25,554 nucleotides of DNA from a virus, in IMG/VR virus record IMGVR_UViG_3300045303_000045, positions 1 through 25,554 of that record; one strand, given 5' to 3'. The translations under genes were made by a program, and so were the position numbers. Under the pieces are notes generated by a model, which saw nothing but the letters and a program-made list of their open reading frames with translations, did no database searches and was not told the DNA's origin. Position 1 is the stretch's first letter. Each line of letters begins with the position of its first letter. Below, piece by piece: positions 5,259-25,144 of this stretch.

Positions 5259-5274
5259 CTAGCCGAAGTACCAA
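5259..5274 (+). promoter_or_regulatory. late-block element copy 1 (CTAGCCGAAGTACCAA)
   Basis: One of six identical 15-16 base elements in the window. It lies 4 bases after the terL stop and 3 bases before the GTG start of the 50-aa gene. No Shine-Dalgarno is present between element and GTG. Proposed late promoter giving leaderless mRNA, or a start-associated translation element. Confidence 0.75.
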
Positions 5275-5277
5275 ACG

Positions 5278-5430
5278 GTGAGCGACGAAGACAGATACGT
5301 CTGGATTCCAACGTATAGCCCTGGAAGCTACGGCGGTCTTGATAACCGCTTTAAGAGCCGAAAGCGCAAGCACCCGCTCGGATTCGCGCCACCGAAACCG
5401 AAGCCTAAGCAGCAGAAGAGGAAGCGATGA
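5278..5430 (+). CDS. small basic Pro/Lys-rich protein
   Basis: 50 aa, GTG start directly after element copy 1. It begins SDEDRYVWIPTYSPGSYGG and ends in a dense basic tail (PPKPKPKQQKRKR). No family recognised. It overlaps the portal start by ATGA, so it is translationally linked to it. The basic tail suggests binding to DNA or to an acidic partner in the portal/packaging machinery, which is inference from position. Its reality is supported by the conserved element, the tight overlap and the absence of other coding in the gap. Confidence 0.65.
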   Translation: MSDEDRYVWIPTYSPGSYGGLDNRFKSRKRKHPLGFAPPKPKPKQQKRKR

Positions 5431-6806
5431 AGCTCGTCCCCTGGCGCCGCAAACAGGAAGTCGTCGAGCGCGGCGGCTACACCGTTCCCCTGGGCTGGGA
5501 CGCCTACCAGCAGCTGTTCACCTACAACGGGAACGTCTACCCCTACGGGCTCAACCAGACCCTCCGAGGCGAGAAGGAGGAGATCGGAAACGACTTCCAG
5601 GGCCTCGTTCGGGGTGCCTACAAGTCGAACGGGATCGTTATGGCCTGCATGCTGGTGCGGCAGATGATCTTCTCGGAGGCCCGCTTTCAGTTCCGTGAGA
5701 TCCGCAAGGGCCGGCCGGGGAACCTGTTCGGCACCCAAGACCTGACGCTGCTCGAGCAGCCCGGCGGTTCAAGCAGCTCGGAAACCACTGGAGATTTGCT
5801 CTCCAGGGCGATGGTGGATGCCGATCTCGCCGGAAACTGGTTCGGATTGCGAGACGGAGACCGGATCAGGAGGCTTCGCCCCGACTGGGTGACGATCGTG
5901 ATGGGCTCGCAGTACGACGCCGAGGACGCGGTCAACCAGTACGACGCCGACGTGCTCGGCTACCTCTACCACCCCGGCGGGATGTACGCAGACCACGACC
6001 CGATCCCATTCCTGCGTGAGGAGATCGCCCACTTTGCCCCGATGCAGGACCCTGAAGCACGTTTCCGGGGCATGTCCTGGGTGACTGGGGTGGTGCGGGA
6101 GATCGTGTCCGACTCGATGGCGACCTCGCACAAGGTCAAGTTCTTCGAGAACGGCGCCACCCCGAACATGGTGATCAAGATGCCCGACTCGGTCCGCAAG
6201 GAGGCGGTCGAGTCCTGGGTCGAGAAGTTCCGGGCCTCCTACGAGGGTGTTGGCAACGCCTACAAGTCGATGGTCTTGGGTGGAGGGGCTGATGTCACCA
6301 CCGTAGGAGCCGATTTCCAGCAGATGGACTTCAAGATCACCCAGGGTGCGGGCGAGACGCGAATAGCGGCAGCTGCTCGTGTTCATCCTGTGATCGTCGG
6401 ACTGTCCGAGGGTCTGCAGGGAGCCTCCTTGAACGCGGGCAACTTCGCGCTCGCCCGCCGCTCCTTTGCGGACGGGACGATGCGACCTTTGTGGCGGAAC
6501 ATGGCTGGCTCGCTCTCGAACATCGTCAAGGTTCCGCCCGGAGCGGAGCTCTGGTACGACGACCGCGACATCGCCTTCCTAAGAGAAGACGAGAAGGACG
6601 CGGCGGACATCCAGGGAGTGAAGGCGACCACGATCAGGCAGTTGATCGAGGCGGGCTTCACCGCCGCCTCCTCGATCGACGCGATCAACTCAGACGACTT
6701 CTCGCGCCTCGTCCACTCAGGGCTAGTTTCGGTGCAGTTGCAGCCTCCCGGGACTCAGAGTGCGCCTTCGAGCAATGGCTCGGCCACTCCCGTCATAGTC
6801 CCGTAG
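5427..6806 (+). CDS. phage portal protein (HK97 family)
   Basis: 459 aa, a normal length for HK97-type portals. This protein forms the dodecameric ring at the capsid vertex through which DNA passes. Recognisable segments are GAYKSNGIVMACMLVRQMI near residue 70, a long central region with PDWVTIV, then KFFENGATPNMVIKMPD, and the clip/crown part with FKITQGAGETRIAAAARVHP and GLSEGLQGASLNAGNFALARR, which are characteristic portal motifs. The C-terminus is Ser/Pro-rich and probably disordered. The ATG is preceded by GAGGAAG. Two consecutive stops (TAG TAA) end it. Confidence 0.93.
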   Translation: MKLVPWRRKQEVVERGGYTVPLGWDAYQQLFTYNGNVYPYGLNQTLRGEKEEIGNDFQGLVRGAYKSNGIVMACMLVRQMIFSEARFQFREIRKGRPGNLFGTQDLTLLEQPGGSSSSETTGDLLSRAMVDADLAGNWFGLRDGDRIRRLRPDWVTIVMGSQYDAEDAVNQYDADVLGYLYHPGGMYADHDPIPFLREEIAHFAPMQDPEARFRGMSWVTGVVREIVSDSMATSHKVKFFENGATPNMVIKMPDSVRKEAVESWVEKFRASYEGVGNAYKSMVLGGGADVTTVGADFQQMDFKITQGAGETRIAAAARVHPVIVGLSEGLQGASLNAGNFALARRSFADGTMRPLWRNMAGSLSNIVKVPPGAELWYDDRDIAFLREDEKDAADIQGVKATTIRQLIEAGFTAASSIDAINSDDFSRLVHSGLVSVQLQPPGTQSAPSSNGSATPVIVP

Positions 6807-6843
6807 TAACCTAGTCCCACACCCCTCCCAACCACAGCCGGCT

Positions 6844-6901
6844 CCACGACCTATTCGTGGGACACTCGAGTAAGAGCGGACGATGAGGGCTCGAGTAGTC
6901 C
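6844..6901. repeat. pair of adjacent inverted repeats in portal-protease gap
   Basis: Two hairpins sit back to back in the 149-base non-coding gap 6807-6955. The first is perfect: CCACGA (6844-6849), loop CCTAT, TCGTGG (6855-6860). The second pairs GGACACTCGAG (6860-6870) with CTCGAGTAGTCC (6890-6901), with one bulged base and a 19-base loop. No T-run follows, so a classic intrinsic terminator is not supported; a regulator-binding site, RNA processing site or weak terminator is possible. The rest of the gap holds element copy 2 and nothing else recognised. Confidence 0.6.
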
Positions 6902-6937
6902 TGTGGGCGGGAGGGCGTCCGCGCTTTAACTAGTGCG

Positions 6938-6953
6938 CTAGCCGAAGTACCAA
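6938..6953 (+). promoter_or_regulatory. late-block element copy 2
   Basis: CTAGCCGAAGTACCAA, two bases (GC) before the GTG start of the prohead protease at 6956. No Shine-Dalgarno between them. This copy lies in a real intergenic gap downstream of two hairpins, so overlap with coding cannot explain its conservation. Confidence 0.8.
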
Positions 6954-6955
6954 GC

Positions 6956-7723
6956 GTGGAGAACGAACTCCCGCGCGTCGGTGACATCTACAGGGCCGTC
7001 TTTCCCTCGCTTGAGCTCGAACGAGCAGTGGAGGAGGACGCGCCGCCGACGCTGACGATGAAATTCGCGCTCTTCAATCGCTGGACCGAGATCGACTCTC
7101 CCATCGAGGGTCACTTCATGGAGCGCGTCTCTCCGGGCGCCTTCAAGAAGTCGATCAAGGAGAACCTGGGAAACGTCCGGGCGATCCTGAGCCACGGCAA
7201 GGATCCGAGCCTCGGTCAAACCGTGCTCGGCAAGATCGAGTCGATTTCCGAGACCAACGACGAGGCGATTGGGCGGGTAAGCCTGTTTCGTTCGCTGCCG
7301 GGGCTTCTCCTCGATGGTCTTCGTGCCGGCGTCTATGGCGCAAGTTTCCGCGGCGCTTCGATCAAGGAGAAGATCGACTACCGGCCAGCGAGATCGGACT
7401 TCAACCCCGAAGGGATCCCCGAAGTAACGCGCACCGAGATCAGGCTGCGCGACATCGGCCCCACACCCTTTGCCGCCTACAGCGAAACCACCTCGATGGT
7501 GCGCTGTGACACCGACGAAGTGTTTGTCAGAACGTTCTTGGAGCAGTCCGAAGTTCGTCGCCTGCTTCAGGAAACAGGAGCCGCGACACTCGATCGCGCA
7601 GAAGAGCCGGACGTCGACGAAGTCGAGCGCACCACTCCTCTCGAGGACGAGCCGCCGCACTCAGCGGAGGAAGTCCCCGAAGAACGAGAGGAGGAAGTGC
7701 CAAGATGGCAGATTCGACGCTAG
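6956..7723 (+). CDS. prohead (HK97-family) protease
   Basis: 255 aa, GTG start right after element copy 2. This maturation protease cleaves the capsid delta domain during head assembly. Family signatures are ALFNRWTEI, EGHFMERVSPGAF, ILSHG with probable catalytic His80, and GVYGASFRGA with probable catalytic Ser130. The last 80 residues are very acidic (EEVPEEREEEV) and may be a scaffolding-like tail, as in some fused protease-scaffold proteins. It overlaps the major capsid gene by 19 bases, and the Shine-Dalgarno of that gene (GAGAGGAGGAAG) lies inside this end. Confidence 0.9.
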   Translation: MENELPRVGDIYRAVFPSLELERAVEEDAPPTLTMKFALFNRWTEIDSPIEGHFMERVSPGAFKKSIKENLGNVRAILSHGKDPSLGQTVLGKIESISETNDEAIGRVSLFRSLPGLLLDGLRAGVYGASFRGASIKEKIDYRPARSDFNPEGIPEVTRTEIRLRDIGPTPFAAYSETTSMVRCDTDEVFVRTFLEQSEVRRLLQETGAATLDRAEEPDVDEVERTTPLEDEPPHSAEEVPEEREEEVPRWQIRR

Positions 7724-9180
7724 GGACCCTCGAAGCTGAGCTCGATGTGATGGTCAAAGACCTCGAGCGGATGCAGGAGGAGTACCCTGACAAAGAGTTT
7801 CCCGAAGACGTCGCCGATCGTTGGGATCGCACCAACAAGACGATCGAGGACTACAAGAAGCGGATCGAGCTCAAGCGCCGCGAGGAGCGGATGGCCGAGC
7901 TCCAGCGCAGTGCCGCTTCAGGAGACAACCAGGAGCGCTCAAGCCTCGGTGGTTTCCAGGTCGGCAACGCCCAGTGGCGTGACCGGCCCTTCGACCTGAG
8001 CACGATCGAGCGTGACTTCGATCCGGCCAAGGAAGGCCAGCAGTTCAAGGATCGGGCTCGCGTTGTGATCGAGGACAAGGTCACCTTCCGGCAGGGCGTC
8101 GGACAGGACGCGGCCAAGCACTACGCCAGCACTCTGGTCGAGGAGCACGACTCCGACGACGGGCAGATCGCACGGCACATGCTCGTCACCGGCTCACCCG
8201 ACTACAAGAAGGCGTTCGGCAAGTACCTGAAGGGCAGCTTCCTCTCGCAAGACGAGATGAGGTCGCTCGAGATCAGCCGTGGTCTCTCCCTGACGGGTGC
8301 CTCCGGCGGCTTCGCGGTGCCGTTCGTGCTCGACCCGACGATCATCCCGACCTCGAACTTGGCGATCAACCCGTTCCGCGCGATCGGGAACGTGGAACAG
8401 GTCCCGGTCGACGAGTGGCGTGGGGTTTCCTCGGGTGCAGTGGTCGCGGCCTACGGTGCCGAGCTGGCGCCGGCCTCGGACAACGCACCGACACTCGCCC
8501 AGCCCACGATCTCGACGGAGAAGGCAGTGGCCTTCATTCCGTTCTCGATCGAGGTGGGCCAGGACTGGGGTGGCCTCGAAAGCTCGATGGCGAGACTGCT
8601 GCAGGACGCCAAGGACACGCTCGAGGCAACCAAGTTCGCGCTCGGCTCGGGCTCCAACGAGCCCTTCGGCGTGATCACGGGTGCCACGACGCTGTTCACG
8701 GCCGCTTCCACCACGGCTCTCGCGGTGGGAGACCTCTACAACCTGGAGACGGCTCTGCCGCCGCGCTTCCGCGCCAACGCGAGCATCGTCTTCAACCGCG
8801 CCGTCGCCCAGAAGATCCGGGCCTTCGACGCGGGCGTGGGTGCCGGTTCCGGCTCGAACATCTGGGTCGACAACCTGCGCCAGGGCCTCTCCGACCAGGT
8901 TCCGACGCCCGGTGGCTACAACACCACGGTGCTCGGCTTCCCGGCGTATGAGTCCAGCGCCATGTCGTCCACCTTCACGACCGGCCAGAAGCTGATCGTG
9001 GTCGGGGACTTCAGCTACTACAAGATCATCGACAGGATTGGGATGAACATCGAGACGATCCCGCACCTGTTCGATGTCACGAACAACATGCCGACAGGCC
9101 AGAGAGGCTTGTATGCCTACTGGCGCAACGGCGCCAAGGTGCTCGACGCCAACGCTTTCGTCACACTGAGACTGGCATAG
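7705..9180 (+). CDS. major capsid protein (HK97 fold, with delta domain)
   Basis: 491 aa, larger than the mature coat because it keeps an N-terminal delta domain. Residues about 5-75 are a long charged coiled coil (LEAELDVMVKDLERMQEE, YKKRIELKRREERMAEL), the scaffold domain removed by the protease. The coat follows, with typical HK97 segments: GGFAVPFVLDPTII, AIGNVEQVPVDEW, IEVGQDWGGLESSMARLLQDA, FALGSGSNEPFGVI, and a late IDRIGMNIETIPHLF and YAYWRNGAKVL. ATG preceded by a strong Shine-Dalgarno. Expected to be among the most abundant proteins of the phage. Confidence 0.93.
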   Translation: MADSTLGTLEAELDVMVKDLERMQEEYPDKEFPEDVADRWDRTNKTIEDYKKRIELKRREERMAELQRSAASGDNQERSSLGGFQVGNAQWRDRPFDLSTIERDFDPAKEGQQFKDRARVVIEDKVTFRQGVGQDAAKHYASTLVEEHDSDDGQIARHMLVTGSPDYKKAFGKYLKGSFLSQDEMRSLEISRGLSLTGASGGFAVPFVLDPTIIPTSNLAINPFRAIGNVEQVPVDEWRGVSSGAVVAAYGAELAPASDNAPTLAQPTISTEKAVAFIPFSIEVGQDWGGLESSMARLLQDAKDTLEATKFALGSGSNEPFGVITGATTLFTAASTTALAVGDLYNLETALPPRFRANASIVFNRAVAQKIRAFDAGVGAGSGSNIWVDNLRQGLSDQVPTPGGYNTTVLGFPAYESSAMSSTFTTGQKLIVVGDFSYYKIIDRIGMNIETIPHLFDVTNNMPTGQRGLYAYWRNGAKVLDANAFVTLRLA

Positions 9181-9182
9181 AG

Positions 9183-9422: not shown

Positions 9423-9440
9423 ACGGCGCACATATTCGTC

Positions 9441-9471
9441 CGAGGGGCACCCGAAGATTGGGTGCCCCTCG
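9441..9471 (+). terminator. hairpin terminator after capsid genes
   Basis: A perfect 12-bp stem: CGAGGGGCACCC (9441-9452), 7-base loop GAAGATT, GGGTGCCCCTCG (9460-9471). It starts 18 bases after the stop of the acidic protein. The tail has only short T-runs (CGTTTGG, CGTTTTGG), which is common for GC-rich actinobacterial terminators. Its place matches the terminator frequently found after phage major capsid genes to reduce downstream expression. Confidence 0.8.
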
Positions 9472-9487
9472 ACGTTTGGAGACCGTT

Positions 9488-9685
9488 TTGGCCCGACCGC
9501 GCAAGCATCCTCCCCGCTACTACCGAGCAACCGATACCGGCGTAGCGGTGCAGGACGGCATTCCCTGGCACTTCAAGAAGGGCGAGCTGTTGCCCGAGGG
9601 AGACCCCAAGCTCGTGGCCTGCCGTTCCTACTTCCAGCCGACGACTTCACTGCCTCCAGGGGAGAAGGTTGGCGACGAACGCTGA
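9488..9685 (+). CDS. small structural-region protein, TTG start
   Basis: 65 aa. TTG 9488 is chosen because GGAGA lies 8 bases upstream (9477-9481); an earlier ATG in this frame would fall inside the terminator loop. The sequence starts MARPRKHPPRYYRATDTG and contains GIPWHFKKGELLPEGDPKLV, a pattern seen in small proteins next to capsid genes of actinophages, where a short barrel-like fold is likely. Role unproven. It overlaps the methyltransferase by 17 bases. Confidence 0.6.
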   Translation: MARPRKHPPRYYRATDTGVAVQDGIPWHFKKGELLPEGDPKLVACRSYFQPTTSLPPGEKVGDER

Positions 9686-10358
9686 GTCGATCGACTTCTG
9701 GAACGAGCACCAGGTAGCGGAGGTTCCGGAGGACATCAGCGCAGAGGAATCGCTCGACCTGATCGAGTGGCGCAACGGGCTTTATCCCGGCTTGCTTGAT
9801 TTGATGCCGGTCGATTATCCCGGCTACCAGATCCTCGACTTCGGCTGCGGTCCGGGACACGACACGATCCAGTTCCTGCTGAACGGCGCTAAGCGCGTCT
9901 ACGCCGCTGACGTGTCGGCTAAGGGTCTTACCTCCCTACGGGCTAGGTTGCGCGCACACGGGCTAGAGGAGCGCTGCACGGTGATGAATCTGGGCCTGAT
10001 CTGGTCCCTGCCCAAGAGCTTCTTCGACCACATCCACGCTGCCGGCGTGATGCACCATCTCGAGCATCCCGTCCCGGCGTTGCGGAAGCTCGCCCGAGCT
10101 CTACGCCCGCACAGCGAGATCCGGATGATGGTCTACTCGACCGAGTCGCAGTTTTTCCAGCAGCACTGCAAGGCCGATCCTGCGATCTTCGCGAGTCGCG
10201 TCGACCACGGAGCGCCGATCGTCCACGCTTACTCTCGGGCCGAAGTAGTGGCGATGGCAGCGAACGCGAACCTGCTGGCTACCTACATGGGCAGCTATCG
10301 CATCCCTGAAGAGACCAAGGGCCTAGGGCTTTCTAGTTGCTGGTCGCTGAAGAAATGA
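9669..10358 (+). CDS. SAM-dependent methyltransferase (class I)
   Basis: 229 aa. TTG 9669 has GGGGAGAAGG just upstream. Motif I is ILDFGCGPG (residues 55-63), followed by the acidic end of strand 2, ADVS (about 80-83), and a motif-IV-like HAAGVMHHLEHP. The N-terminal FWNEHQV...SLDLIEWRNGLYPGLLDLMP resembles a group of methyltransferases found in phages and in glycan-modification clusters. The substrate is not visible in the sequence; being co-oriented and overlapping with two glycosyltransferases suggests methylation of a glycan or of a structural protein. Overlaps the next gene by ATGA. Confidence 0.85.
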   Translation: MATNAESIDFWNEHQVAEVPEDISAEESLDLIEWRNGLYPGLLDLMPVDYPGYQILDFGCGPGHDTIQFLLNGAKRVYAADVSAKGLTSLRARLRAHGLEERCTVMNLGLIWSLPKSFFDHIHAAGVMHHLEHPVPALRKLARALRPHSEIRMMVYSTESQFFQQHCKADPAIFASRVDHGAPIVHAYSRAEVVAMAANANLLATYMGSYRIPEETKGLGLSSCWSLKK

Positions 10359-11092
10359 TCATCACGGCGATGCTTTGTTGGTTTGACGAACCAGCCGCGT
10401 TACTGCGTCAGGTCGTCAAGAGTGCGGCCGTGATTTGCGATCGGATCGTCGCCGCGGACGGAGCCTACGAGCTGATTCACGACCGAGCCCCGGAGAGCCC
10501 GCCGGCACAGAAGAGGGCGATCGAGGACGAGTGCAAGAAGCGCAAACTCAAGGTCGAGTTCCTCGAGCCGCGACTGTGGAAGGGCCAGGTGGAGAAGCGA
10601 AACGCTGTCCTACGACACGCCGCTGAGGGATCGGACTGGGTGATGGTGCTCGACGCCGACTGGAAGATCACCGGGGAACGGCAGCTGATCCGCCGCGAGA
10701 TCGCCGAAGTCGCTCAGCGAGACGTCGAGCAGATCATGGTGGAGTTCATCGAGCCGAACAACCCCGACCGGGACATCAGCATCAGCGCCCCGAACATCTG
10801 GCACGTCTCGGAGTGCGAGATCACCCGAAGGAATCCGCTCATCTTCCGCTCGATGAAGGACATGCGCTGCGAACAGCACCACTGGATCTATTCGGCAGAA
10901 CGAGCAAACGGAACGCGGGTAGGTCTCTGGGGTGGAATCGGCCTCTACCCTATGCCTCAGAGCCACATCCTTCTAGCTTCACACCGCTTCGAGCACATGT
11001 GCCTGTTCCGGGACGACAAGCGGATCCAGCGCAATCGCCTCTTCTGCGGTGCGCGTGACGCTGACGTGGCGCTCCAGGGGGTGGAGCGGTGA
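10355..11092 (+). CDS. glycosyltransferase, GT2-like (GT-A fold)
   Basis: 245 aa. ATG 10355 is chosen for the ATGA coupling; a TTG 18 bases upstream is an alternative. The fold reads MIITAMLCWFDEPAALLRQV, then ICDRIVAADGAY, then WKGQVEKRNAVL, then WVMVLDADW, where D100-A-D102 is the metal/nucleotide-sugar DxD motif. Later segments hold CEITRRNPLIFR and ASHRFEHMCLFR. It probably transfers a sugar from a nucleotide donor in the cytoplasm. Acceptor unknown: virion protein, phage DNA base or host cell-wall glycan. Neighbours argue for one decoration cassette. Confidence 0.82.
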   Translation: MIITAMLCWFDEPAALLRQVVKSAAVICDRIVAADGAYELIHDRAPESPPAQKRAIEDECKKRKLKVEFLEPRLWKGQVEKRNAVLRHAAEGSDWVMVLDADWKITGERQLIRREIAEVAQRDVEQIMVEFIEPNNPDRDISISAPNIWHVSECEITRRNPLIFRSMKDMRCEQHHWIYSAERANGTRVGLWGGIGLYPMPQSHILLASHRFEHMCLFRDDKRIQRNRLFCGARDADVALQGVER

Positions 11093-11337
11093 CGGACGAG
11101 CAGATGGCTCTCATCATGGCGCGGATGAGCCAGCAGCACCGCTACGAGATTGCGAAGCTCGAGGCCCTGCTGATTCGTTATCGGGAGTTCATCGAGGACA
11201 ACGGCTTGACTGCTCCTGACGAGACCGGCGCGGAGGCACTGCGGCGCTTCCGCGTCGTGTTCGAGATCGCCGGCCTTTGGGATCCACTGCAGCACCCCGA
11301 GCTCTTGGCCGACTGGACGAAGGAGAAGGTCGCTTGA
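11089..11337 (+). CDS. small helical protein between glycosyltransferases
   Basis: 82 aa, GTG start (GTGA overlap). Predicted helical: MALIMARMSQQHRYEIAKLEALLIRYREF, then EALRRFRVVFEIAGLW. No membrane segment or catalytic motif. Its stop overlaps the following glycosyltransferase start by 4 bases, so it may be a partner of that enzyme. Family not recognised. Confidence 0.55.
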   Translation: MTDEQMALIMARMSQQHRYEIAKLEALLIRYREFIEDNGLTAPDETGAEALRRFRVVFEIAGLWDPLQHPELLADWTKEKVA

Positions 11338-12044
11338 CGACCCACCAGTTCCCCCAGAAGAAGGCAAGCGGCGGGATGGTCGGAGTCGTCTGCGGCGAGC
11401 TGATGCGCTACGCGCACTTCTTCATGACCTTCATGGTCTTGGACCTTCCCGAAGGCACGCAGCCCTTTATTCAGCCGGGGATGGACATCGTCAAGCAGTG
11501 CAACGACATGGTCGAAGCGGCTCGCAAGAGTGGGGCTGAGTGGCTCTGGATCATGGGCGACGATCACGTCTTCGACGGCGACATCGTGCAAAAGCTCCTC
11601 CTCCATAACGCCGATGTGGTCGTGCCCTACTGCCTTCAACGCTCGGCCCCGTTCAACCCGGTGGTCTACAAGAGTGAGGACGAGGATGGGCACCACGCGG
11701 TCTACGTCGACCTACCTCAACACGGGCTGGTGGAGGTCTACGCCGCCGGCAGCGCCGGGATGCTGATCTCGAAGCGCGTTCTCGATGCGGTGCCCGAGCG
11801 GCCCTTTACTACAAGCAGAGGACACCACAACGAGGATCTGGAGTTCTGCCGCCACGTCCGCGAGGCGGGGTTCACGATCCATGTCGACGTCGATACGCAC
11901 TTGGGTCACGTCGGAACGATGTGGTGCGCTCCGCAGTGGATGGACGAATACGGCTGGGGGATCGCGCTGACGATTGGCCCCGGTCACACCATGCCGATCC
12001 GCCGCATCGGGCAAGAGGACTCAGCCAGTCTCACTGCGGCCTAG
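11334..12044 (+). CDS. glycosyltransferase-like protein (GT-A fold)
   Basis: 236 aa. TTG 11334 is chosen because AGGAGAAGG (from 11321) sits 5-8 bases upstream and the start overlaps the previous stop (TTGA). WLWIMGDDHVFDGD (residues 70-83) carries the DxD-type D76-D77-H78; AAGSAGMLISKRVLDAV and NEDLEFCRHVREAGFTIHVDVD are the acceptor-loop and C-terminal motifs typical of phage and capsule GT-A enzymes, ending in LGHVG. Substrate unknown. Its TAG stop (12042-12044) lies within element copy 3, so element and gene end are fused. Confidence 0.8.
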   Translation: MTTHQFPQKKASGGMVGVVCGELMRYAHFFMTFMVLDLPEGTQPFIQPGMDIVKQCNDMVEAARKSGAEWLWIMGDDHVFDGDIVQKLLLHNADVVVPYCLQRSAPFNPVVYKSEDEDGHHAVYVDLPQHGLVEVYAAGSAGMLISKRVLDAVPERPFTTSRGHHNEDLEFCRHVREAGFTIHVDVDTHLGHVGTMWCAPQWMDEYGWGIALTIGPGHTMPIRRIGQEDSASLTAA

Positions 12045-12056
12045 CCGAAGTACCAA
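12041..12056 (+). promoter_or_regulatory. late-block element copy 3
   Basis: CTAGCCGAAGTACCAA; its TAG is the stop codon of the glycosyltransferase, and GTG 12059 follows after GC. No Shine-Dalgarno. It marks the junction from the glycan cassette to the adhesin/fibre block. Confidence 0.8.
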
Positions 12057-12058: not shown

Positions 12059-12214
12059 GTGGGAAACATCGAGGCGAAGGTTCCGCTCAAGCAGGCGACG
12101 ATTGAAGCCGTAGTGATTCGCGCTGACGGATCGCGCGAGGATCTGGGCGTCGTCTCGTACTGGCACAAGAACCCGCTGAGACGGTTGCTGTGGAGAATTC
12201 GTGGCAACCGCTAA
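12059..12214 (+). CDS. small hypothetical protein, leaderless GTG start
   Basis: 51 aa, GTG immediately after element copy 3. It starts GNIEAKVPLKQATIEAVVIRA, a beta-strand-like stretch, and ends basic and aromatic (SYWHKNPLRRLLWRIRGNR). No family recognised. It overlaps the next small gene by 14 bases. Support comes from the element and the overlapping gene chain. Confidence 0.6.
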   Translation: MGNIEAKVPLKQATIEAVVIRADGSREDLGVVSYWHKNPLRRLLWRIRGNR

Positions 12215-12365: not shown

Positions 12366-12761
12366 ATGGCCACTGTCGTAACGAACGGCGGACGCGACGT
12401 GATCACCAACCGCCTCGGTGCGGCGGGCACGGCCGAGCCAAAGAACATCGGCTGGGGGACCGCGGCGGGAACTGCAGCGGTTACCGATACAACCCTCTTC
12501 ACCGAGAAGCTGGTTGACCTCACGACTTCGGCGGGGACTGATCACACCGTAGGGACCTCGACCCAGCAGACGACCTCAGTCACGAACGACACCTACCAGG
12601 TGGTCGGAACCCGAACCGCTACAGGAGCAGGCACGGTGACGAACGCTGGCCTCTTCACCGCTGCTTCGGGTGGAACCCTGTTCCTCAAGGGAGACTTCAC
12701 CGGGATCGGGCTGGCATCGGGCGACTCGATCCAGTTCACGATCAAGGCGATCTTCGCCTAA
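12366..12761 (+). CDS. beta-rich phage structural protein (fibre/decoration type)
   Basis: 131 aa. Gly/Thr-rich: NIGWGTAAGTAAVTDTTLFTE, then TSVTNDTYQVVGTRTATGAGTVTNAGLF, then GGTLFLKGDFTGIGLASGDSIQFTIK. This pattern, with an AGLF turn and a final ASGDSIQFTIK strand, is shared by small tail-fibre or surface proteins of many phages. Shine-Dalgarno GAGGGGAAG is upstream. Likely displayed on the virion. The exact location, head or tail, is not decided by the sequence. Confidence 0.7.
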   Translation: MATVVTNGGRDVITNRLGAAGTAEPKNIGWGTAAGTAAVTDTTLFTEKLVDLTTSAGTDHTVGTSTQQTTSVTNDTYQVVGTRTATGAGTVTNAGLFTAASGGTLFLKGDFTGIGLASGDSIQFTIKAIFA

Positions 12762-13369
12762 TGGCCGGCGAGACCCAGAACTATCACGAGACGCGAGATC
12801 CCTATTTTCAGTCGGGGAACTTCACTTCCGTCGCTCCAATCACGACCTCAATCAGCCTGGTTCCCATTCTCAGGGTTCCGGCTACGAACCTCGCTTTTCC
12901 CGCCGACTACTGGCTCAAGCCCGGAAGACGTTGGTGGATCCGACTGAACGGGTTTCTTACGAATGCCGCTACTCCCGGCAACTGGACGTTTGAAGTTCGC
13001 CACCAGACAGGAGCAGCCCCAACCGACGCAGGCGGAACGATCATCTGCACTTCCGCTGCTCTCGCTGGCGCAGCTACCAAAGTGGCGTCTTTCGTGATGA
13101 ATGTCATTGTCGAGTCCAGGGGCGATGCTTCTACGTTTGTTCCGACGGCATCTCCCCTTGCTTGCTACGGAGACCTTATGGTGGATGGGGTAATCGGATT
13201 CTGGACTACGGGGTCAAATAACCCGATGGTGATGCCAACGGCTACGGGCGCTACTGTCACCAATGTCGACTGCACTCTGGCGGGCCACATTCATATCGAC
13301 GCCAAGCGTTCAGGTTCTACTGCCGAAGCTTGCACGGTTACGGATCTCGCCGTCAACGCGATGACATGA
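12761..13369 (+). CDS. putative virion structural beta protein
   Basis: 202 aa, overlapping the previous stop by one base (TAATG). Sequence alternates beta strands and turns: TTSISLVPILRVPATNLAFPADYW, RRWWIRLNGFLTN, WTFEVRHQTGAAPTDAGGTIICT, GHIHIDAKRSGS. The overall look is a jelly-roll/C1q-like surface domain. There is no signal peptide. Family not recognised; virion role is inferred from the neighbours. Confidence 0.6.
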   Translation: MAGETQNYHETRDPYFQSGNFTSVAPITTSISLVPILRVPATNLAFPADYWLKPGRRWWIRLNGFLTNAATPGNWTFEVRHQTGAAPTDAGGTIICTSAALAGAATKVASFVMNVIVESRGDASTFVPTASPLACYGDLMVDGVIGFWTTGSNNPMVMPTATGATVTNVDCTLAGHIHIDAKRSGSTAEACTVTDLAVNAMT

Positions 13370-14529: not shown

Positions 14530-16182
14530 ATGGCCGTCACCCTTGAGGGCGGCTTCCCGGTCACCAACAACAACGCTAGAACCACGACCTCGATCACGGT
14601 CGGGGCAGGCGCGAACCGGCTGCTCGTGGTTTGCCTTACCAGCGAGCTCGCGGCGGAACCCGGCACGGCGGTCACCTTTGGCGCGGCCGGCCTGACCAAG
14701 CTCGATGACACACAGGCCACGACGTTCACCCGAGCGCAAATCTGGTATCTGGTCGCGCCGGCAACCAGCACGGCGAATGTCACCTGCACAGTCACCGGAT
14801 CGAGCGGCGGCTGTGGAGTCGCCTGCTACGTCTTCGATGGCGTCGACCAGGTAACGCCGCTCTCGACCGCCGGCAAAGGCTCGGCCGACTCGGGCACGAC
14901 AGCGAGCCACACGCCTACCGGCTTCGCTTCAGGCGATCTGACGGTCGACGTTCTCGGCCTTGACTCGACGGGCCATACCCCGGTTGTCACCGGGAGCAAT
15001 GTCGGTGACTACGCGACGGTGGCGTTCGCTTCAGCCGGCGGCGAGTTCCGGGGATCCTCGAACACCACCAGCGGCGTCATGTCCTGGTCGTGGACGACTT
15101 CGGCGCCGAACTCGCACATCGCCGCGATCGTCAAACAGGTAGCGACTGCTGCTGGGGTCGGGTCCGCTCCTGCTTTTCGTCCATTGATGCTCTCTCTGCG
15201 GAAGTTCAACAAGCCCAAGGGAATCTTCCTCGGCTTTCCGCAGCTCGACAGGGGTACGGTCGGTGCAGCGCTCTTCAATCAGCCGCTAACTGCTGACGCA
15301 GTGGTGGCCACTGGCTCGATGCAGCGCCAGGTGAACAAGCCATTAACCGCAACCTCGGTTGTGGCGACGGCGAGCTTCGTCAAGCAGGTGAACAAGCTGC
15401 TGAGCGCTACGGCGGTCGTCGTCACCGCGTCGATGGTTGCGCTGAAGGTGATCCTCAAGGCTTTGACCGCGACGACCGTGCTGGTTACGGCCTCGATCGT
15501 CAAGCAGGTGAACATCCCACGCAGTGCGACTACCGTTGTAGTGACCGCTTCGATCGTGAAGCAGGTGAACAAGCTCTTGACCGCGACGACGGTAGTAGTC
15601 ACGGCGTCGATGGTGGCGATCAAGGTGATCCTTCGCACTCTTACGGCCACATCGGTGGTTGTGAGCGCGAGCATGGTCAAGCTAGTCGGGAAGCCTCTAA
15701 CCGCGACCAGCGTGGTTCTCTCTGCCTCTCTAGTGAAGCAGGTAGGGAAGCGCCTAACCGCGACCTCCGTAGCGGTTACGGCCACTCTGGCGGCGATCAG
15801 GGTCTTCTTGAAGACGATGACCGCGACCTCTGTGGTTGTAACCGCCTCGATGGTTCGGCGGGTCAACTTCGCGCTCAGCGTGACGGTTGGGCTGACGGCG
15901 ACGATCACCAAGTCGATCACTCACCGCCTGACTGCAACGGTTTCTGTCACGGGCTCGCTCGTCGCCGCTCTTGTCGGTCAGTTGATCGGACCCTTCGCGG
16001 CTTCGCTGACCGTGACTGACGCTGACACGATTCAGCTCTTACTCTCGGACGCTTCCACGATTGCGTTGGCGATCGCAGACGCTCCGAGCTCGGATGCCTC
16101 GGCGGCTGATTCCTCGAGCACTGGCGTTGACCAGAGCGACGGCGGCAGCACCGAGCTCACGATCACCGATACCACCCCCTAG
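14530..16182 (+). CDS. adhesin-like protein with three-tier internal repeats
   Basis: 550 aa, starting directly after the previous stop. Residues 1-215 form a beta-sandwich of a type widespread in phage and metagenomic surface proteins: GAGANRLLVVCLTSEL, TFTRAQIWYLVAP, CGVACYVFDGVDQVTPL, GDLTVDVLGLDSTG, VMSWSWTTSAPNSHIAAIV. A short basic linker follows. Residues 251-446 are tandem repeats of 18-21 residues with core LTATSVVVTASMV. The end (about 447-550) is a degenerate repeat plus an acidic Ser/Asp tail. Likely a fibre or adhesin exposed on the virion. The stop TAG is part of element copy 4. Confidence 0.7.
   Translation: MAVTLEGGFPVTNNNARTTTSITVGAGANRLLVVCLTSELAAEPGTAVTFGAAGLTKLDDTQATTFTRAQIWYLVAPATSTANVTCTVTGSSGGCGVACYVFDGVDQVTPLSTAGKGSADSGTTASHTPTGFASGDLTVDVLGLDSTGHTPVVTGSNVGDYATVAFASAGGEFRGSSNTTSGVMSWSWTTSAPNSHIAAIVKQVATAAGVGSAPAFRPLMLSLRKFNKPKGIFLGFPQLDRGTVGAALFNQPLTADAVVATGSMQRQVNKPLTATSVVATASFVKQVNKLLSATAVVVTASMVALKVILKALTATTVLVTASIVKQVNIPRSATTVVVTASIVKQVNKLLTATTVVVTASMVAIKVILRTLTATSVVVSASMVKLVGKPLTATSVVLSASLVKQVGKRLTATSVAVTATLAAIRVFLKTMTATSVVVTASMVRRVNFALSVTVGLTATITKSITHRLTATVSVTGSLVAALVGQLIGPFAASLTVTDADTIQLLLSDASTIALAIADAPSSDASAADSSSTGVDQSDGGSTELTITDTTP
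15280..15867 (+). repeat. coding tandem repeat, 59-aa super-repeat
   Basis: Ten consecutive units encode x-L-T-A-T-x-V-V-V-T-A-S-M-V. Their ends alternate in a fixed order: KQVNK, KQVNK, then a longer ALKVILK end. Unit lengths are 20,19,21 / 19,19,21 / 19,19,21 / 18, giving a super-repeat of 59 residues (177 bases) present three times plus a partial. DNA copies have diverged at synonymous sites, so this is an old, selected protein repeat, not a recent slippage product. Confidence 0.85.
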
Positions 16183-16194
16183 CCGAAGTACCAA
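16179..16194 (+). promoter_or_regulatory. late-block element copy 4
   Basis: CTAGCCGAAGTACCAA; its TAG is the stop codon of the repeat protein, and GTG 16197 follows after CC. No Shine-Dalgarno between. It separates the adhesin block from the connector block. Confidence 0.8.
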
Positions 16195-18660: not shown

Positions 18661-18666
18661 AGTTTC

Positions 18667-18672: not shown

Positions 18673-18701
18673 GTTGCAGATTCGGGCATCTTCGCATCGC
18701 T

Positions 18702-18716
18702 CTAGCCGAAGTACCA
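18702..18716 (+). promoter_or_regulatory. late-block element copy 5, not at a start codon
   Basis: CTAGCCGAAGTACCA, then CTC where the other copies have AGC, ACC or AAC. No GTG follows; the next gene starts at ATG 18744 with its own Shine-Dalgarno (CGAGGAGCG, about 18731-18739). This copy shows the element can work at a distance from the start codon, as expected for a promoter with a 5' leader. It lies between the divergent ribbon-helix-helix gene and the major tail gene. Confidence 0.8.
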
Positions 18717-18743
18717 CTCGAACCCCGCTACGAGGAGCGCTGA

Positions 18744-19745
18744 ATGCCTGAGGTCAGTTCACTTTTCAACGGAGTCCAGCTTGGAGCGGAGACCACCGCG
18801 TCTCCCGGCACGGCCGTCTCAGCGTCGAAGCTCCTCAACTACCTGAACTTCCAGCCGACCTTCTGGGCCGGCGACTTCAACGTCATGACCCCGATGGGCC
18901 AGAAGGCCGGTTCGGGTGTCTCCCCCGGCTACGACTACACCAGCTGGGCGCTCTCCTCGGATGTCGGTTCTTACTCGGAGATGATCTACCCGCTGGCCTC
19001 GCTGCTGAAGGACGTCTCGCCCTCGACGGTGGAGACCACGGCGAGGCTGTGGACGTTCAAGCCCACGGCTCGATCCGAGGACACGATCCGTACCTACACG
19101 GTCGAGACGGGTTCCACGACCAGGGCGCAGAAAGCCACCTTCGTCGCCGTCACCGGGATCGAGGTCACCTTCAACCGCTCGACTGGAGTCACCCTTTCGG
19201 GGAGCGGGATCGGGCAGCAGATCCAGGACAACGTCGCCCTCGACACCGCCACGGCGATCGAGGACGCGCCGATCCTGCCCACACATCTGGACGTCTTCGT
19301 GGACACGACCTCCACGAACATCGGCACCACCAAGGTCACGCGCGACTTCAACGCGGTCTTCCGCTACAACGACGCTCGCCAAGCGGTCTGGGCGATCAAC
19401 TCGGCTAACGCCTCCTACGTGAACCTGGTCGAGACGCGGCCCACGGCGCAGATCGAGCTGACGATGGAAGCCGACTCTGCGGGGATGGCGTACTTGGTCA
19501 ACGCTCGAGCGGGGACGATGAGCTACATCCGGCTCTCGGCGGTCTCGACTGTGGTAGCAGGAGCGGGCACGGCCAAGTACCAGATGATCATCGACGCCGC
19601 CGGCAAGATCACCAACATCGCCGGACCTGATGACACGGACGGGATCAAGACCGTCACCTTCACCTGGGATCTGATGTTCGACTCGTCTTGGTCTTCGGGG
19701 ACCTACCTGACCATCGGCGTTCAGAACAAGGTTGCCGCTCTATGA
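18744..19745 (+). CDS. major tail tube protein
   Basis: 333 aa. It occupies the slot between tail terminator and tail assembly chaperone. The N-terminus LFNGVQLGAETTASPGTAVSASKLL, the central TFNRSTGVTLSGSGIGQQIQDN, VFRYNDARQAVWAINSANASY, and the late TAQIELTMEAD and IKTVTFTWDLMFDSSW match actinophage tail tube proteins of the Thr/Ser/Ala-rich type. It is preceded by a good Shine-Dalgarno and element copy 5, suggesting high expression. Its stop overlaps a possible 24-aa ORF (ATGA). Confidence 0.85.
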   Translation: MPEVSSLFNGVQLGAETTASPGTAVSASKLLNYLNFQPTFWAGDFNVMTPMGQKAGSGVSPGYDYTSWALSSDVGSYSEMIYPLASLLKDVSPSTVETTARLWTFKPTARSEDTIRTYTVETGSTTRAQKATFVAVTGIEVTFNRSTGVTLSGSGIGQQIQDNVALDTATAIEDAPILPTHLDVFVDTTSTNIGTTKVTRDFNAVFRYNDARQAVWAINSANASYVNLVETRPTAQIELTMEADSAGMAYLVNARAGTMSYIRLSAVSTVVAGAGTAKYQMIIDAAGKITNIAGPDDTDGIKTVTFTWDLMFDSSWSSGTYLTIGVQNKVAAL

Positions 19746-20488: not shown

Positions 20489-22491
20489 TGGCGACGACCG
20501 TCGCGCGTCTGCAGGCAGTTCTGAGCGCTGACACGCGCGACTTCGATCGCGGAATGGATAAGTCGCAGGGGAAGATGAGCAAGGTTGGAAAAGCGGCTGG
20601 GATTGCCGGTCTGGCCATTGCCGGCGGGCTAGCGGTTGGGCTCAAGAAGTCCGTCCATGAGGCGATGGAAGCCGAGCAAGTGCAAGCGCGGCTGGCCGTG
20701 GCGTTCAAGACAGCGGGACTAAACATCAAGCCCTACGCGAAGTCGATCGAGCAAGCGGACAAGGCGACTCGCAAGATGGGCTTCTCGGACGAGGATGCGA
20801 AGAACGCTCTCGGGTCCCTGATCGTCGCTACCAAGAGCTACAAGAAATCGCGCGTCGATCTGAACATCGCGATGGACATCGCGCGCTTCAAGAACATTGA
20901 CCTGTTGTCAGCGACCAAGATGTTGACGATGGCCCAAGCGGGCTCGCAGAGGGCAACGAAACAGCTCGGTCTTACGGTGCAGGCCTCGACCGCAAACGCC
21001 GACAAGGCCAAGCTCGCCTATAACGCACAGAAGGATGCGATCGACGCTCAGTACAAATCCTTGGGCAAGTTAACCCCCGCTGAAGAGGCCCAGAAGCAGG
21101 CGGCGTTAGATACAGCCAAGGCGCACTACGATGGCGCCAAAGCGACTGCTCAGGTGATTGACAAACAAGTCACCGCAGCCAAGGTCATCGACCTGGTCAA
21201 AGTCAAGCTGCATGGGCAGGCACAGGCTTTTAGCGAGACCACTGCCGGGCAGATGGCGCGGTTCTCGGCTCAAACTCAGGAGCTCGAGGAACAACTCGGC
21301 AAGATGCTGCTGCCTGCGCTCACTGGTGTGACAGCGGCACTTGCGACATTGGCTGAGGGAATGCAGGGTCATACGGAAATCGCCAAGATCGCCACGGTTG
21401 CGTTGGCCGGTCTGGCCGCAGCCCTCCTGCTCACAAGCCTCTACGCCAAGCTTGCCGCTTCGGCGTTTGTGAAGCAGTTCATCCCGGCGCTCGTCAGAAG
21501 CACTGGGGCGATGCTCGGGTTCGACGCAGCCGCGGACGCTAACCCGCTCGGAGCTGTGATCGTGAGCGTGGTGGCGCTTTCGGCGGCGCTGGTGTATTTG
21601 GAACTCAAGTACCAGGCTCTTTCTAGGGCGGTCAAGTTCTTGACCACAAACTGGTACCTGTTGCTCGTGCCCATCGGGCTCATCCCAGCCGCGATTGCGT
21701 TGGTGGTCAAGAAGTTCGGTCTGTTTGAGGATGTTGTAGGAGGTGTCCAGAAGGCCGCTGCTGGTTTGCGGAACGAGGTCCATACGCTCGCCTCGGCGTT
21801 CGAGAAGGTCGTTGACGCTCTCAAGTGGATTATCAACAACGCCAAGAAGATCGGTGGCGTGCTCGGTGGAATCGGCGGAGCGATCGGCGGCGCGGTCGGC
21901 AAGGTCAACCCCTTCGGAGACGGTCTCGGAAGCATTCAGAAGGCGGTCAAGATGGGCGGCAGCGGCGCGGCGGAAGGAAAGGCTTTCAACGTCGGCAGCC
22001 AGCTCTGGGACGAGATCGGCTTCGGAGAGAAGCTGGGCCTACGCGTCACCTCGGGCTATCGGCCCGGCGCGGTCACCAAGCACGGCACTCCCTCAGACCA
22101 CGGCTACAACCCGTCTCGCGCTGTCGACATGGCTGGGTCAGGAGGAGCCATGGCGGCGATGTTCATGGCGCTTGTGGGACGCAGAGAGATCAGACAAGCC
22201 TTCTATGACCCGCTCGGCTCGATCTTCGGCGGGGTGCGCTCAAGCTACCGCGAGGGTGGGCACTCCGATCACATCCACATCGCGGAGTACGACAAAGGCG
22301 GCTACCTGCGACCTGGCTGGAACCTGGCCTACAATGGTCTCGGCCGTAATGAGCAAGTCGGTGGTGGGGACGTGGTCATCCCCGTCTCCATCGGTGGAGA
22401 GCACGTCGCCACGGTGATCTTCGACCAGCTCAGGCGTAAGGCGAAGGTGTTCGAGAACCGCAACGGCCGGCCGGCCTTCGGGGGAGCGTAG
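20488..22491 (+). CDS. tape measure protein with C-terminal M15-like peptidase domain
   Basis: 667 aa, GTG start in TAGTG. It sets tail length and is injected early. N-terminal RDFDRGMDKSQGKMSKVGKAAG is a usual tape-measure start. A Lys/Ala-rich helical part follows (to residue 290), then hydrophobic segments (IATVALAGLAAALLL, LGAVIVSVVALSAALVYL, WYLLLVPIGLIPAAIAL) probably inserting in the host membrane. Residues about 515-600 carry LRVTSGYRPG, KHGTPSDHG, SRAVDM and HSDHIHIAEY, the zinc-ligand pattern of M15/hedgehog-type peptidases, which could cut peptidoglycan on entry. About 2 kb suggests a tail near 100 nm by the usual 0.15 nm per residue rule. Confidence 0.88.
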   Translation: MATTVARLQAVLSADTRDFDRGMDKSQGKMSKVGKAAGIAGLAIAGGLAVGLKKSVHEAMEAEQVQARLAVAFKTAGLNIKPYAKSIEQADKATRKMGFSDEDAKNALGSLIVATKSYKKSRVDLNIAMDIARFKNIDLLSATKMLTMAQAGSQRATKQLGLTVQASTANADKAKLAYNAQKDAIDAQYKSLGKLTPAEEAQKQAALDTAKAHYDGAKATAQVIDKQVTAAKVIDLVKVKLHGQAQAFSETTAGQMARFSAQTQELEEQLGKMLLPALTGVTAALATLAEGMQGHTEIAKIATVALAGLAAALLLTSLYAKLAASAFVKQFIPALVRSTGAMLGFDAAADANPLGAVIVSVVALSAALVYLELKYQALSRAVKFLTTNWYLLLVPIGLIPAAIALVVKKFGLFEDVVGGVQKAAAGLRNEVHTLASAFEKVVDALKWIINNAKKIGGVLGGIGGAIGGAVGKVNPFGDGLGSIQKAVKMGGSGAAEGKAFNVGSQLWDEIGFGEKLGLRVTSGYRPGAVTKHGTPSDHGYNPSRAVDMAGSGGAMAAMFMALVGRREIRQAFYDPLGSIFGGVRSSYREGGHSDHIHIAEYDKGGYLRPGWNLAYNGLGRNEQVGGGDVVIPVSIGGEHVATVIFDQLRRKAKVFENRNGRPAFGGA

Positions 22492-23033
22492 TGGCTAACC
22501 CCTACGTCAAGCAGACCTGGGTCGACAACAACGTCGCCAACCCAACAAGCGCCGCGAGGATGGGCGTGCTTGAGACGGGGATCTTCGATGCTCATTACCC
22601 GCCAGCGGTTTGCGTGACTCACAACGCCAGTCAGTCGATCACGACTTCCACGAACACGATCCTCGCGTTCAACACCGAGCGTTACGACCAGGCGAGCAAC
22701 GTTGCCGACACGATGCACGACACGGTCACCAACAACTCGCGCCTGACTTGCCGTTATGCGGGGGTCTACCACATCACCGGAATGATCGAGTGGGCGACGA
22801 ACACCACCGGGGAACGAATCGTGGAGCTGTTCCTGAACAACACCACGGTCATCGCTCGCAATCGCCTGGCAGCAGGTTCGGTCGGCTCGATTGTCCAGTC
22901 GGCGTCCCGAGATTACTCGCTCGCGGTGAACGACTTCGTAGAGGTACGCGTCTTTCAGTCGAGCGGCGGCGCACTGAACGTCACCGTGGGCGCCAACTAT
23001 TCGCCCGAGTTCATGATGGTCCGCGTTGGCTAG
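22491..23033 (+). CDS. C1q/TNF-like tail fibre protein
   Basis: 180 aa, GTG overlapping the tape measure stop by one base. The first 40 residues are a shaft/attachment segment (VKQTWVDNNVANPTSAARM); the remainder is a C1q/TNF-type jelly roll: QSITTSTNTILAFNTERYD, CRYAGVYHITGMIEWATNTTGERIVELFLN, YSLAVNDFVEVRVFQSSGGALNVTV. Such domains trimerise and bind receptors at fibre tips. Position right after tape measure is unusual for a fibre tip, which normally comes later. Overlaps the next gene by 8 bases. Confidence 0.75.
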   Translation: MANPYVKQTWVDNNVANPTSAARMGVLETGIFDAHYPPAVCVTHNASQSITTSTNTILAFNTERYDQASNVADTMHDTVTNNSRLTCRYAGVYHITGMIEWATNTTGERIVELFLNNTTVIARNRLAAGSVGSIVQSASRDYSLAVNDFVEVRVFQSSGGALNVTVGANYSPEFMMVRVG

Positions 23034-23694
23034 CGTCGGCCCTGCTGTTGTCACGTCGACCACAGCGGTAACTAGCACCGCCACGGTCACCGGGCAGGGA
23101 TTGTCTCCGATCCCCCGTTGTCGGATCTCCTACGACGATGTCTCGGTGGCTACGCCGAACTGGACCGAAGTCACGAACGCTGACTTCCGCGCCTTCACCA
23201 GCTCGAGGGGACGTGATGCGGAGCACTCCGAGTTCGACGCTGGCACGGCTACGGCTTCGCTCGACAACCGCGATCGCGCCTATGACCCAGCAGCACTACC
23301 CGATGTTATCCGACCCCTGAACCGAATCTGGCTCTACTACGAGTTTAGTGGGGTGGTCGATGACATCTTCAAGGGCTATGTCTCAGCCTGGGGCCAGGAC
23401 TGGCCGGGTGGAGGTTGGTCGGATGCTGTCGCCACTGCCAATGCGGCGGATGAGTTCTCGGTGCTCTCCCAGGCTGCGCTTCCGGTGACGAGCCCGCCGC
23501 GAGAGTCCTACGCAGACCTGCTTGCTACTGATGGGCCGGTGGGCTACTGGGATATGAACGAGGATCCTGCGTCACGCCAACGACTGCCGAGCGAGATAGT
23601 GATAGCGCTGCCTGAATTTACCCAATACGGACGGCGAGAGGCAGAGCGCGCTGATCGTAGAACCCGTCCGCGTGTTCAGAAGCGGAAGCGCTGA
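23026..23694 (+). CDS. minor tail protein, N-terminal part (probably split)
   Basis: 222 aa, TTG start. The body resembles the N-terminal half of siphovirus minor tail/baseplate proteins: AGTATASLDNRDRAYDPAA, RPLNRIWLYYEFSGVVDDIFKGYVSAWGQDW. It then reaches SYADLLATDGPVGYWDMNEDP, the standard lead into a LamG domain, but from residue about 184 turns into a basic tail (REAERADRRTRPRVQKRKR) and stops. The expected LamG domain starts in the next gene, in another frame. So the ORF looks truncated by a frameshift, or the gene was split into two coupled ones (TGATG). Confidence 0.75.
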   Translation: MASVGPAVVTSTTAVTSTATVTGQGLSPIPRCRISYDDVSVATPNWTEVTNADFRAFTSSRGRDAEHSEFDAGTATASLDNRDRAYDPAALPDVIRPLNRIWLYYEFSGVVDDIFKGYVSAWGQDWPGGGWSDAVATANAADEFSVLSQAALPVTSPPRESYADLLATDGPVGYWDMNEDPASRQRLPSEIVIALPEFTQYGRREAERADRRTRPRVQKRKR

Positions 23695-25040
23695 TGGCGA
23701 ACGCTCTCTTAGTTCCTGACGCTAGCGCTACGGGCGCGATAAGTGTTGGGGCAATCGTCGGTGACAACTCGACTCCGTGGCAAGGTGCGCTCATGACCGC
23801 TGGGGATTCCATGACAACCGGCGATCTAGAGCAGGGGGAAGCGGGCGAGGCCGGGGGTCTGCTCGATTTCAGCGTTGAGGGCTGGTTCCAATGGACAGCC
23901 GCTGCTCCGACTGCCGGCAGTAACTTGGTCTACGGCCCGGTTTCTACCTCGGGCGTTCTCCGACAATGGCGGCTCACTATCGGGGGGGCGGGTGGCGCGC
24001 AGTTCTCGGCGATCAATGCAGCGGGCACGGAAATCTCTTCGACCCAAAGTGCGGCCCTAGTCTCTGCTACCTGGTATCACTTGGTCGGGGTTGTCACGGG
24101 TGGAAACGTACGTGTCTATGTGAACGGTGTCGATGCGGGAGCTTCGGCGTTCGTGGGGGCGATTCGCCCCTCAGCCTTAACCGCAGGCTCCGCACAGATG
24201 GCGCTCTTTTACGTTGGCGGCACGAATCAATACGTTGACGAGCTAGCGGTCTACCGAGTGGGACTGAGTGCAACGCGAGTTCTGGAGCACTACACCGCCG
24301 GCCGTAACCGCGGGTTCGCTCAGCAGCTTCCAGGCGAGCGAATCGGAGCGGTGCTCGACACGATCAGCTCTCATGCTCCACGGAGCCTCCAGGCAGGGAC
24401 TAGGAACGTCATCCCCCGCTATATGAGCGGGCAGTCACCGCTGGAGGAGTGCCGCAGGGCGGTGGAAGCCGAAGACGTCGACGCGGCCCTGTTCGTCTCG
24501 GCCGGCGGCACGATCACTTTTCTCGCTGATGGCCATCGGAGCTCCTCGCCCTACAACACGATCCAGGCGACCTTCGGAGACGGCACGGGGGAGTTGGCCT
24601 ACACCGACCTCGAAACGGACTACTCCGAGAGTGAGCTGATCAACGAGTGGAACGTCACTCGCTCGAGTTATGGCCCGACTGCGGCAGCAACCCAGACCGC
24701 TTCCGATGCCACCTCGATCTCCAAGTACTTCAAGCGCTCCCAGTCGATTTCGGATGTTCCCACAACTTCGGACGCCAACTGCGCCACGATCGCTACTGCA
24801 TTGCTGGCGAAGTACAAGGACCCGCTCTACCGGATCACTTCGATCTCGTTCAACACCATCGACCCGAACGTGACCGAGGCGGTGCTTCAGCGCGAGCTGA
24901 TGGACAAGATCCGCATCCTCCGAACCCCTCCGGGGGGAGGATCGAGGATTCAGCAGGACGTGTTCATCCAGAAGATCGACATCGCCGGCTCGAATGACGG
25001 GCGGCCCTGGACGATCCGCTGGGCCGTCTCGCCGCTGTAA
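23694..25040 (+). CDS. minor tail protein, LamG plus C-terminal part
   Basis: 448 aa, ATG in TGATG with weak Shine-Dalgarno. Residues about 55-200 are a LamG/concanavalin-like domain: LDFSVEGWFQWTAAAP, WYHLVGVVTGGNVRVYVNGVDAG, YVDELAVYRVGLSATRVLEHYTAG. The rest is the usual tail-protein domain found after it: RIGAVLDTISSHAPRSL, SPLEECRRAVEAEDVDAALFVSAGG, LINEWNVTRSSYGP, DPLYRITSISFNTIDPNVTE, RIQQDVFIQKIDI. Together with the gene before it, it matches one continuous minor tail protein of related phages. The glycan-binding LamG could aid host adsorption. Confidence 0.8.
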   Translation: MANALLVPDASATGAISVGAIVGDNSTPWQGALMTAGDSMTTGDLEQGEAGEAGGLLDFSVEGWFQWTAAAPTAGSNLVYGPVSTSGVLRQWRLTIGGAGGAQFSAINAAGTEISSTQSAALVSATWYHLVGVVTGGNVRVYVNGVDAGASAFVGAIRPSALTAGSAQMALFYVGGTNQYVDELAVYRVGLSATRVLEHYTAGRNRGFAQQLPGERIGAVLDTISSHAPRSLQAGTRNVIPRYMSGQSPLEECRRAVEAEDVDAALFVSAGGTITFLADGHRSSSPYNTIQATFGDGTGELAYTDLETDYSESELINEWNVTRSSYGPTAAATQTASDATSISKYFKRSQSISDVPTTSDANCATIATALLAKYKDPLYRITSISFNTIDPNVTEAVLQRELMDKIRILRTPPGGGSRIQQDVFIQKIDIAGSNDGRPWTIRWAVSPL

Positions 25041-25072
25041 AAGAGCGCGCCGCAGCGGGTCCTGGGGAGGGA

Positions 25073-25132
25073 CGCTACAGACGCGCTGTCTACGACAGTA
25101 GCGCCTAGGTTGCCTGGGGTCCAGCCCCCTAG
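25073..25132. repeat. nested inverted repeats before the lysin
   Basis: In the 106-base gap 25041-25146. CGCTAC (25073-25078) pairs with GTAGCG (25098-25103), and alternatives AGAC/GTCT (25079-25082 and 25088-25091) or CTGTC/GACAG (25086-25090 and 25094-25098) lie inside. A second structure is CTAGG (25105-25109) with CCTAG (25128-25132), plus GGGG/CCCC within. The 3' arm of the latter is the first four bases of element copy 6. No T-run. Terminator, operator or mutually exclusive RNA structures are all possible. Confidence 0.55.
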
Positions 25133-25144
25133 CCGAAGTACCAA
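25129..25144 (+). promoter_or_regulatory. late-block element copy 6
   Basis: CTAGCCGAAGTACCAA in a true intergenic gap, two bases (CC) before GTG 25147 of the endolysin. No Shine-Dalgarno. It is overlapped at its 5' end by an inverted repeat arm. Confidence 0.8.

Follow-up and report, generated by a model that had tools for sequence, protein, structure and literature searches.

The window, that is, the whole stretch of DNA that was analysed, comprises 25,554 bases and is an entire virus record, the record itself being a phage fragment. A scan of the window for CTAGCCGAAGTACCA found six exact copies, all of them on the plus strand (positions 5259, 6938, 12041, 16179, 18702 and 25129), exactly as listed in an earlier, sequence-only reading of this DNA. 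Apart from these copies, the window contains no site with three or fewer mismatches to CTAGCCGAAGTACCA; in shuffled sequences the mean number of sites at this level was 0.57, and none of the shuffles reached six. The copies lie on the coding strand at the heads of late gene units. Copy 1 (5259–5273) is followed by a GTG codon at 5278 that opens a gene of 50 aa overlapping the start of the portal gene. The GTG codon after copy 2 (6938–6952) is at 6956 and opens the gene of the head maturation protease (255 aa, named using PHROGs). Copies 3 (12041–12055) and 4 (16179–16193) are those whose TAG (at 12042 and 16180, respectively) had correctly been noted to be the stop codon of the preceding gene (11277–12044 and 14530–16182); their GTG codons at 12059 and 16197 open a 51-aa gene and the gene of the head-tail adaptor (318 aa, name also from PHROGs). 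Copy 5 (18702–18716) has no GTG codon; it is separated by 27 bases, including the Shine-Dalgarno sequence GAGGAG, from the ATG codon at 18744 of a gene for which PHROGs gave no match and for which we kept the earlier name, tail tube. Copy 6 (25129–25143) precedes the GTG codon at 25147 of an amidase-like lysin, named from an EWGA-type motif and open-ended at the window end.

Thus, GTG does follow five copies, as had been claimed, but the spacing is 3 bases in four copies and 4 bases after the copy at 5259, not 2–3 bases. The claimed lack of a Shine-Dalgarno sequence was confirmed by a simple scan of the window: none of the five genes headed directly by the element has a match, whereas 22 of the 25 other called genes have a match of at least 4 nt (Fisher P 0.0004). 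Scanning the window for Rfam families and tRNAs yielded nothing.

Two observations concern other genes of the window. Methyltransferase-like and glycosyltransferase-like genes (9669–11092) lie inside the structural block, between the capsid and the connectors. A 131-aa gene (12366–12761) is 84–93% identical to genes in several phages, and the other proteins that these phages share with the window are mostly less than 60% identical to those of the window; judging by this, the gene has probably been exchanged as a module.

Relatives carrying the element were identified by protein searches. With the window, they form a set of seven phages, the others being G1 (contig L141, 42,474 bases), G2 (L137), G3 (L124), G6 (L162, 41,421 bases), G7 (L208, 35,747 bases) and L138. 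The motif search in relatives that the sequence-only reading had suggested gave own versions of the element in these six contigs: TAGCCGAAAACC in G1 and a mostly identical one in G6, TAGCCGACCAAC in G2, TAGCCGTACAAC in G3, TAGCCGAAGAAC in G7 and TGGCCGAACAAC in L138. In two short contigs one copy heads the protease gene; L125 has the version of the window, L126 that of L138. Counterparts of the window copies occupy orthologous sites, namely L124 5573, L208 6765, L125 2613 and L126 1263 for copy 2 (protease), L124 9787 for copy 3, L124 12835, L141 9984 and L208 14680 for copy 4 (head-tail adaptor), and G2 19950 for copy 6 (lysin). The consensus pooled over 38 copies from the seven phages is C-T[A/G]GCCG[A/T][A/C]N[A/T]NC, with six invariant positions. 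The motif is near-uniform inside each genome and divergent across genomes, and it stays on a single strand at the heads of orthologous late genes; uniformity within genomes combined with divergence between them fits a reader encoded by the phage. In G1 and G6 (about 42 kb each) every good copy is in the late block and on the strand of the late block, which supports the earlier suggestion that the element coordinates late modules.

Several other candidates were rejected. The exact 15-mer occurs in 37 stretches of other viral contigs, with one match each and none at a gene start resembling those of the window, and these were attributed to chance or to coding sequence. The near matches seen in the first portal relatives seemed to be coincidences within coding sequence. 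Contigs L199 and L248 have one motif match each, not at plausible heads of late genes, and the GCCGGCCAAC repeat of L192 is inside genes.

The distance to the start codon was measured from the first T of the motif, and a start codon was counted only if it opened a frame of at least 40 codons. In 24 of the 38 copies a start codon is located 17–18 nt after this T, the chance expectation being 2.8–4.4% for random positions and 5–10% after any TAG. The copies with no fitting start codon include G6 17935 and G1 35309; in G2 there are starts at +20 and +22. A short, asymmetric sequence kept in one orientation at gene boundaries might also be a stoperator-like repressor site that silences late genes in the lysogen. 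Stoperators of cluster A phages are generally spread throughout the genome. Against such sites, which we consider extremely improbable, stand the restriction of the element to the heads of late genes in G1 and G6, its exact distance to the start codon and its tie to missing Shine-Dalgarno sequences. The orientation of stoperators has been described (PMC4351075).

The sequence-only reading had proposed either a late promoter or a translation-start element, and the relatives favour the promoter. A translation element would work in the mRNA in the manner of the start-associated sequences (SAS) of mycobacteriophages, being bound by the ribosome or another factor to start translation, in line with the constant short distance to the start codons and the missing Shine-Dalgarno sequences. 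The tail-tube gene argues against it. In four phages (the window, G2, G3 and G7) a leader with a normal Shine-Dalgarno sequence comes after the element of this gene, and the start codon is 39–48 nt from the T (counterparts of the copy 5 layout are at L124 14424, L208 17945 and G2 12082). In G6 (31245) and L138 (3229) the same gene has the leaderless layout with the start at +17. Since the gene has a leader in at least four phages and is leaderless in two, a signal for transcription start accounts for every layout, and a signal for translation start does not. Moreover, the motif varies between phages, which a signal read by the ribosome would not. The SAS of cluster K, GGGATAGGAGCCC, is likewise a short asymmetric repeat just before starts that sometimes contains the preceding stop codon, but it has a Shine-Dalgarno core, is found at non-structural genes and is common across the cluster (PMC3203893). 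The window element is directly upstream of starts in five of six copies and has neither the AGGAG core pairing with 16S rRNA nor another anti-16S core. The parallel with mycobacteriophage SAS drawn earlier thus holds for the position near starts and fails for the core and for the genes involved, which here are late rather than non-structural. We consider a translation element very unlikely; judging from these layouts, the six elements are most likely promoters of late genes, with most messages beginning at the start codon.

Two features of G1 are mentioned separately. Its tail-tube gene (L141 around 13098–13180) apparently starts at ATT after GGGAGG, and the ATG codon at +17 of the tail-tube element opens a frame of 13 codons. 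Two elements, at L141 798 and 975, are 177 bases apart and have ATG codons at +17 of each in the same frame; the G1 protease could exist as a long and a short form.

The earlier statement that the region upstream of the element has no common sequence and no −35/−10 pair was upheld. Within any of the five phages tested, no upstream hexamer was common beyond chance and no −35-like sequence was observed; over the 38 copies, the sole conspicuous column upstream of −1, a weak one, is at −15. Hexamers of the host sigma-70 type are not present at −35 and −10, and there is no TANNNT at the expected place.

The same window contains a sigma-like gene (2663–3143, plus strand) that the sequence-only reading had overlooked. 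It is located upstream of the HNH gene and the terminase gene. Frame 0 is open from 2651 to 3124, and homology begins at 2663. The region-2 half (2663–2968) is in frame 0, has homologues in contigs L124, L157, L162 and L208 and yields a model resembling sigma domain 2. The region-4 half with the helix-turn-helix (2970–3143, stop codon 3141–3143) is in the +1 frame, the change taking place after approximately codon 101. Sigma-like homologues in G1, G3, G6 and G7 have 36–45% identity, and the offset is identical in all five phages. The point of the frame shift is placed only to about 2966–2985. All ten phage pairs show conservation of the +1 frame past the junction (z 15–22, and 53 for the near pair G1–G6), and for frame 0 z is near 0 in six pairs and from 4 to 37 in four. 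Comparison of G1 with G6 before the junction gives 28 synonymous and 6 nonsynonymous codon changes in frame 0; past the junction, the counts are 7 synonymous and 4 nonsynonymous in the +1 frame and 2 synonymous and 8 nonsynonymous in frame 0. Coding constraint thus switches frame at the junction, which, along with the equal offset in five phages, rules out sequencing error or gene decay. An internal start of the region-4 half was also rejected: although GAGGA and an ATG at 2985 are present in the window, neither L208 nor L162 has an in-frame start at this place. Transcriptional slippage was rejected as well, the C5 run being present in the window and L124 only. A candidate +1 slip site, CCC-C (2966–2969), is common to the window and L124 (G3) only and does not fit the other three phages, so that the slip site is not conserved. 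Based on frame conservation, a conserved +1 frameshift would join the region-2 and region-4 halves.

The joined proteins have a weak match across both halves to PHROG 1740 (0.0013 at best), a match to Sigma70_r4_2 (7.6e-5 at best) and, in two of four, a match to Sigma70_r2 (0.012–0.07), all sigma profile scores being below the curated cut-offs. AlphaFold2 models of the window protein, with mean pLDDT of 73 and 76, resemble sigma factors. In the second structure search, all 50 PDB matches listed were sigma factors, the best having a structural Z of 8.9 over 74–75 residues of sigma domain 2, modest for a helical domain. Given that the structural matches are uniform and that the region-4 half follows in the correct order, the predicted product of 2663–3143 is likely a phage sigma factor.

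The sigma-like gene is present in all five element phages whose contig covers the region; the contigs of G2, L138, L125 and L126 do not extend to it. Among 16 portal relatives with at least 5.7 kb upstream covered, none has the sigma-like gene and none has the element. The association has P 5e-5 with relatedness ignored, and it rests on few phages, some of which are close (G1 and G6). A late promoter might instead be read by a single-subunit phage RNA polymerase, an activator or a host sigma factor. Promoters of the T7 type, too, would agree with a contiguous motif that stops a few bases short of the RNA start, and late promoters that depend on activators are common. Such readers we consider unlikely. 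A host-type −10/−35 pair was not found, a 42-kb relative has no open frame of RNA polymerase size, PF00940 (RNA polymerase) gave no match in six mostly fragmentary contigs in which the control also had none, and it is a sigma-like gene that accompanies the element. The probable reader of the elements is a sigma factor made by the virus, the putative gene for which is split over two frames in the same manner in five phages.

At the DNA level, the sole match of the window among named phages is 168 bases of the portal gene in Rhodococcus phage Shagrat. The tail tube, the adaptor and the sigma half have no match among named phages, and no relative was found in the prokaryote genomes scanned. The nearest named relatives of the portal are from Gordonia, Rhodococcus and Mycobacterium phages. 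Leaderless messages are translated well in Actinobacteria.

Taken together, we are fairly confident that the elements are single-element late promoters read by the frameshifted phage sigma factor (2663–3143), with RNA starting at +17/18. Early in infection, the host polymerase would transcribe the sigma message, and a fraction of ribosomes would shift by +1 and produce the full sigma factor with regions 2 and 4. The core polymerase with this factor would bind the contiguous CTAGCCGAAGTAC at about −18 to −6, with no −35 element, and open the late block at the motifs, the RNA starting at a purine 17–18 nt past the first T of the motif. In five of six places this purine is the first base of GTG, which implies a leaderless message, and mostly leaderless messages would result; the tail-tube RNA would carry a Shine-Dalgarno sequence within a leader of roughly 23 nt. 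Counting against this model, the putative sigma factor has a region-4-like half, yet no −35 element is seen. More tentatively, and with some doubt, the gene may have two products, a frame-0 protein with region 2 only and the frameshifted sigma factor with regions 2 and 4, the efficiency of frameshifting setting the level of late transcription. We know of no sigma factor controlled by frameshift efficiency.

Precedents exist separately for phage sigma factors, for single-element late promoters and for repeated start elements. The promoters of phiEco32 gp36 consist of a single element with RNA starts 6–8 bp downstream (PMC8948821); the predicted start here is 6–7 bp past the element, which would place the element at about −17 to −6. 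Both phiEco32 and the system predicted here have a phage sigma factor and several late promoters, each built from one contiguous element with no −35. They differ in that phiEco32, a podophage of E. coli, has the motif tAATGTAtA and a single-frame gene for gp36, which has no region 4 (PMC8948821), whereas the system described here has leaderless genes and a +1-frame half that resembles region 4. The gp47 protein of phage 7-11, also a phage sigma factor, has homology to region 4 and recognises late promoters, but these are bipartite (GTAAtg-16-aCTA), and no frameshift is reported (PMC8948821). Microbacterium EC and EI phages likewise combine a repeated one-strand intergenic motif (18 bp in 12 copies in EC, 5 copies in EI, function unproven) with a phage sigma gene (PMC7302621). 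The EC motif, TAGaCTCTaGGTgTaAgC, differs in being 21–30 bp 5' of start codons, ahead of the ribosome binding site, and mostly at non-structural genes; the paper reports neither a link between motif and sigma factor nor a frameshift (PMC7302621).

The literature searched contained no example of leaderless structural genes combined with such promoters, of a diverged promoter set within one phage group, or of a split-frame or frameshifted sigma gene; as the search covered only open-licence papers, this absence is weak evidence. An unexplained phage repeat becomes a testable pair of promoter and sigma factor with several natural variants of each, which may be useful for studying how sigma domain 2 changes the motif and as orthogonal promoters. 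The results also suggest that the phage expresses its structural genes mainly from leaderless messages, and they point to a conserved frameshift within a predicted sigma gene.

In relatives with shared capsid or fibre genes, a distinct repeated start element, CCGATAGGCG, was observed on one strand. Its copies are at 7412, 9330 and 12835 in L075, between 3758 and 15376 in L193 (7 copies) and between 1814 and 16769 in L224 (5 copies), mostly a few bases 5' of ATG or GTG, and it possibly represents another start-associated or promoter family.
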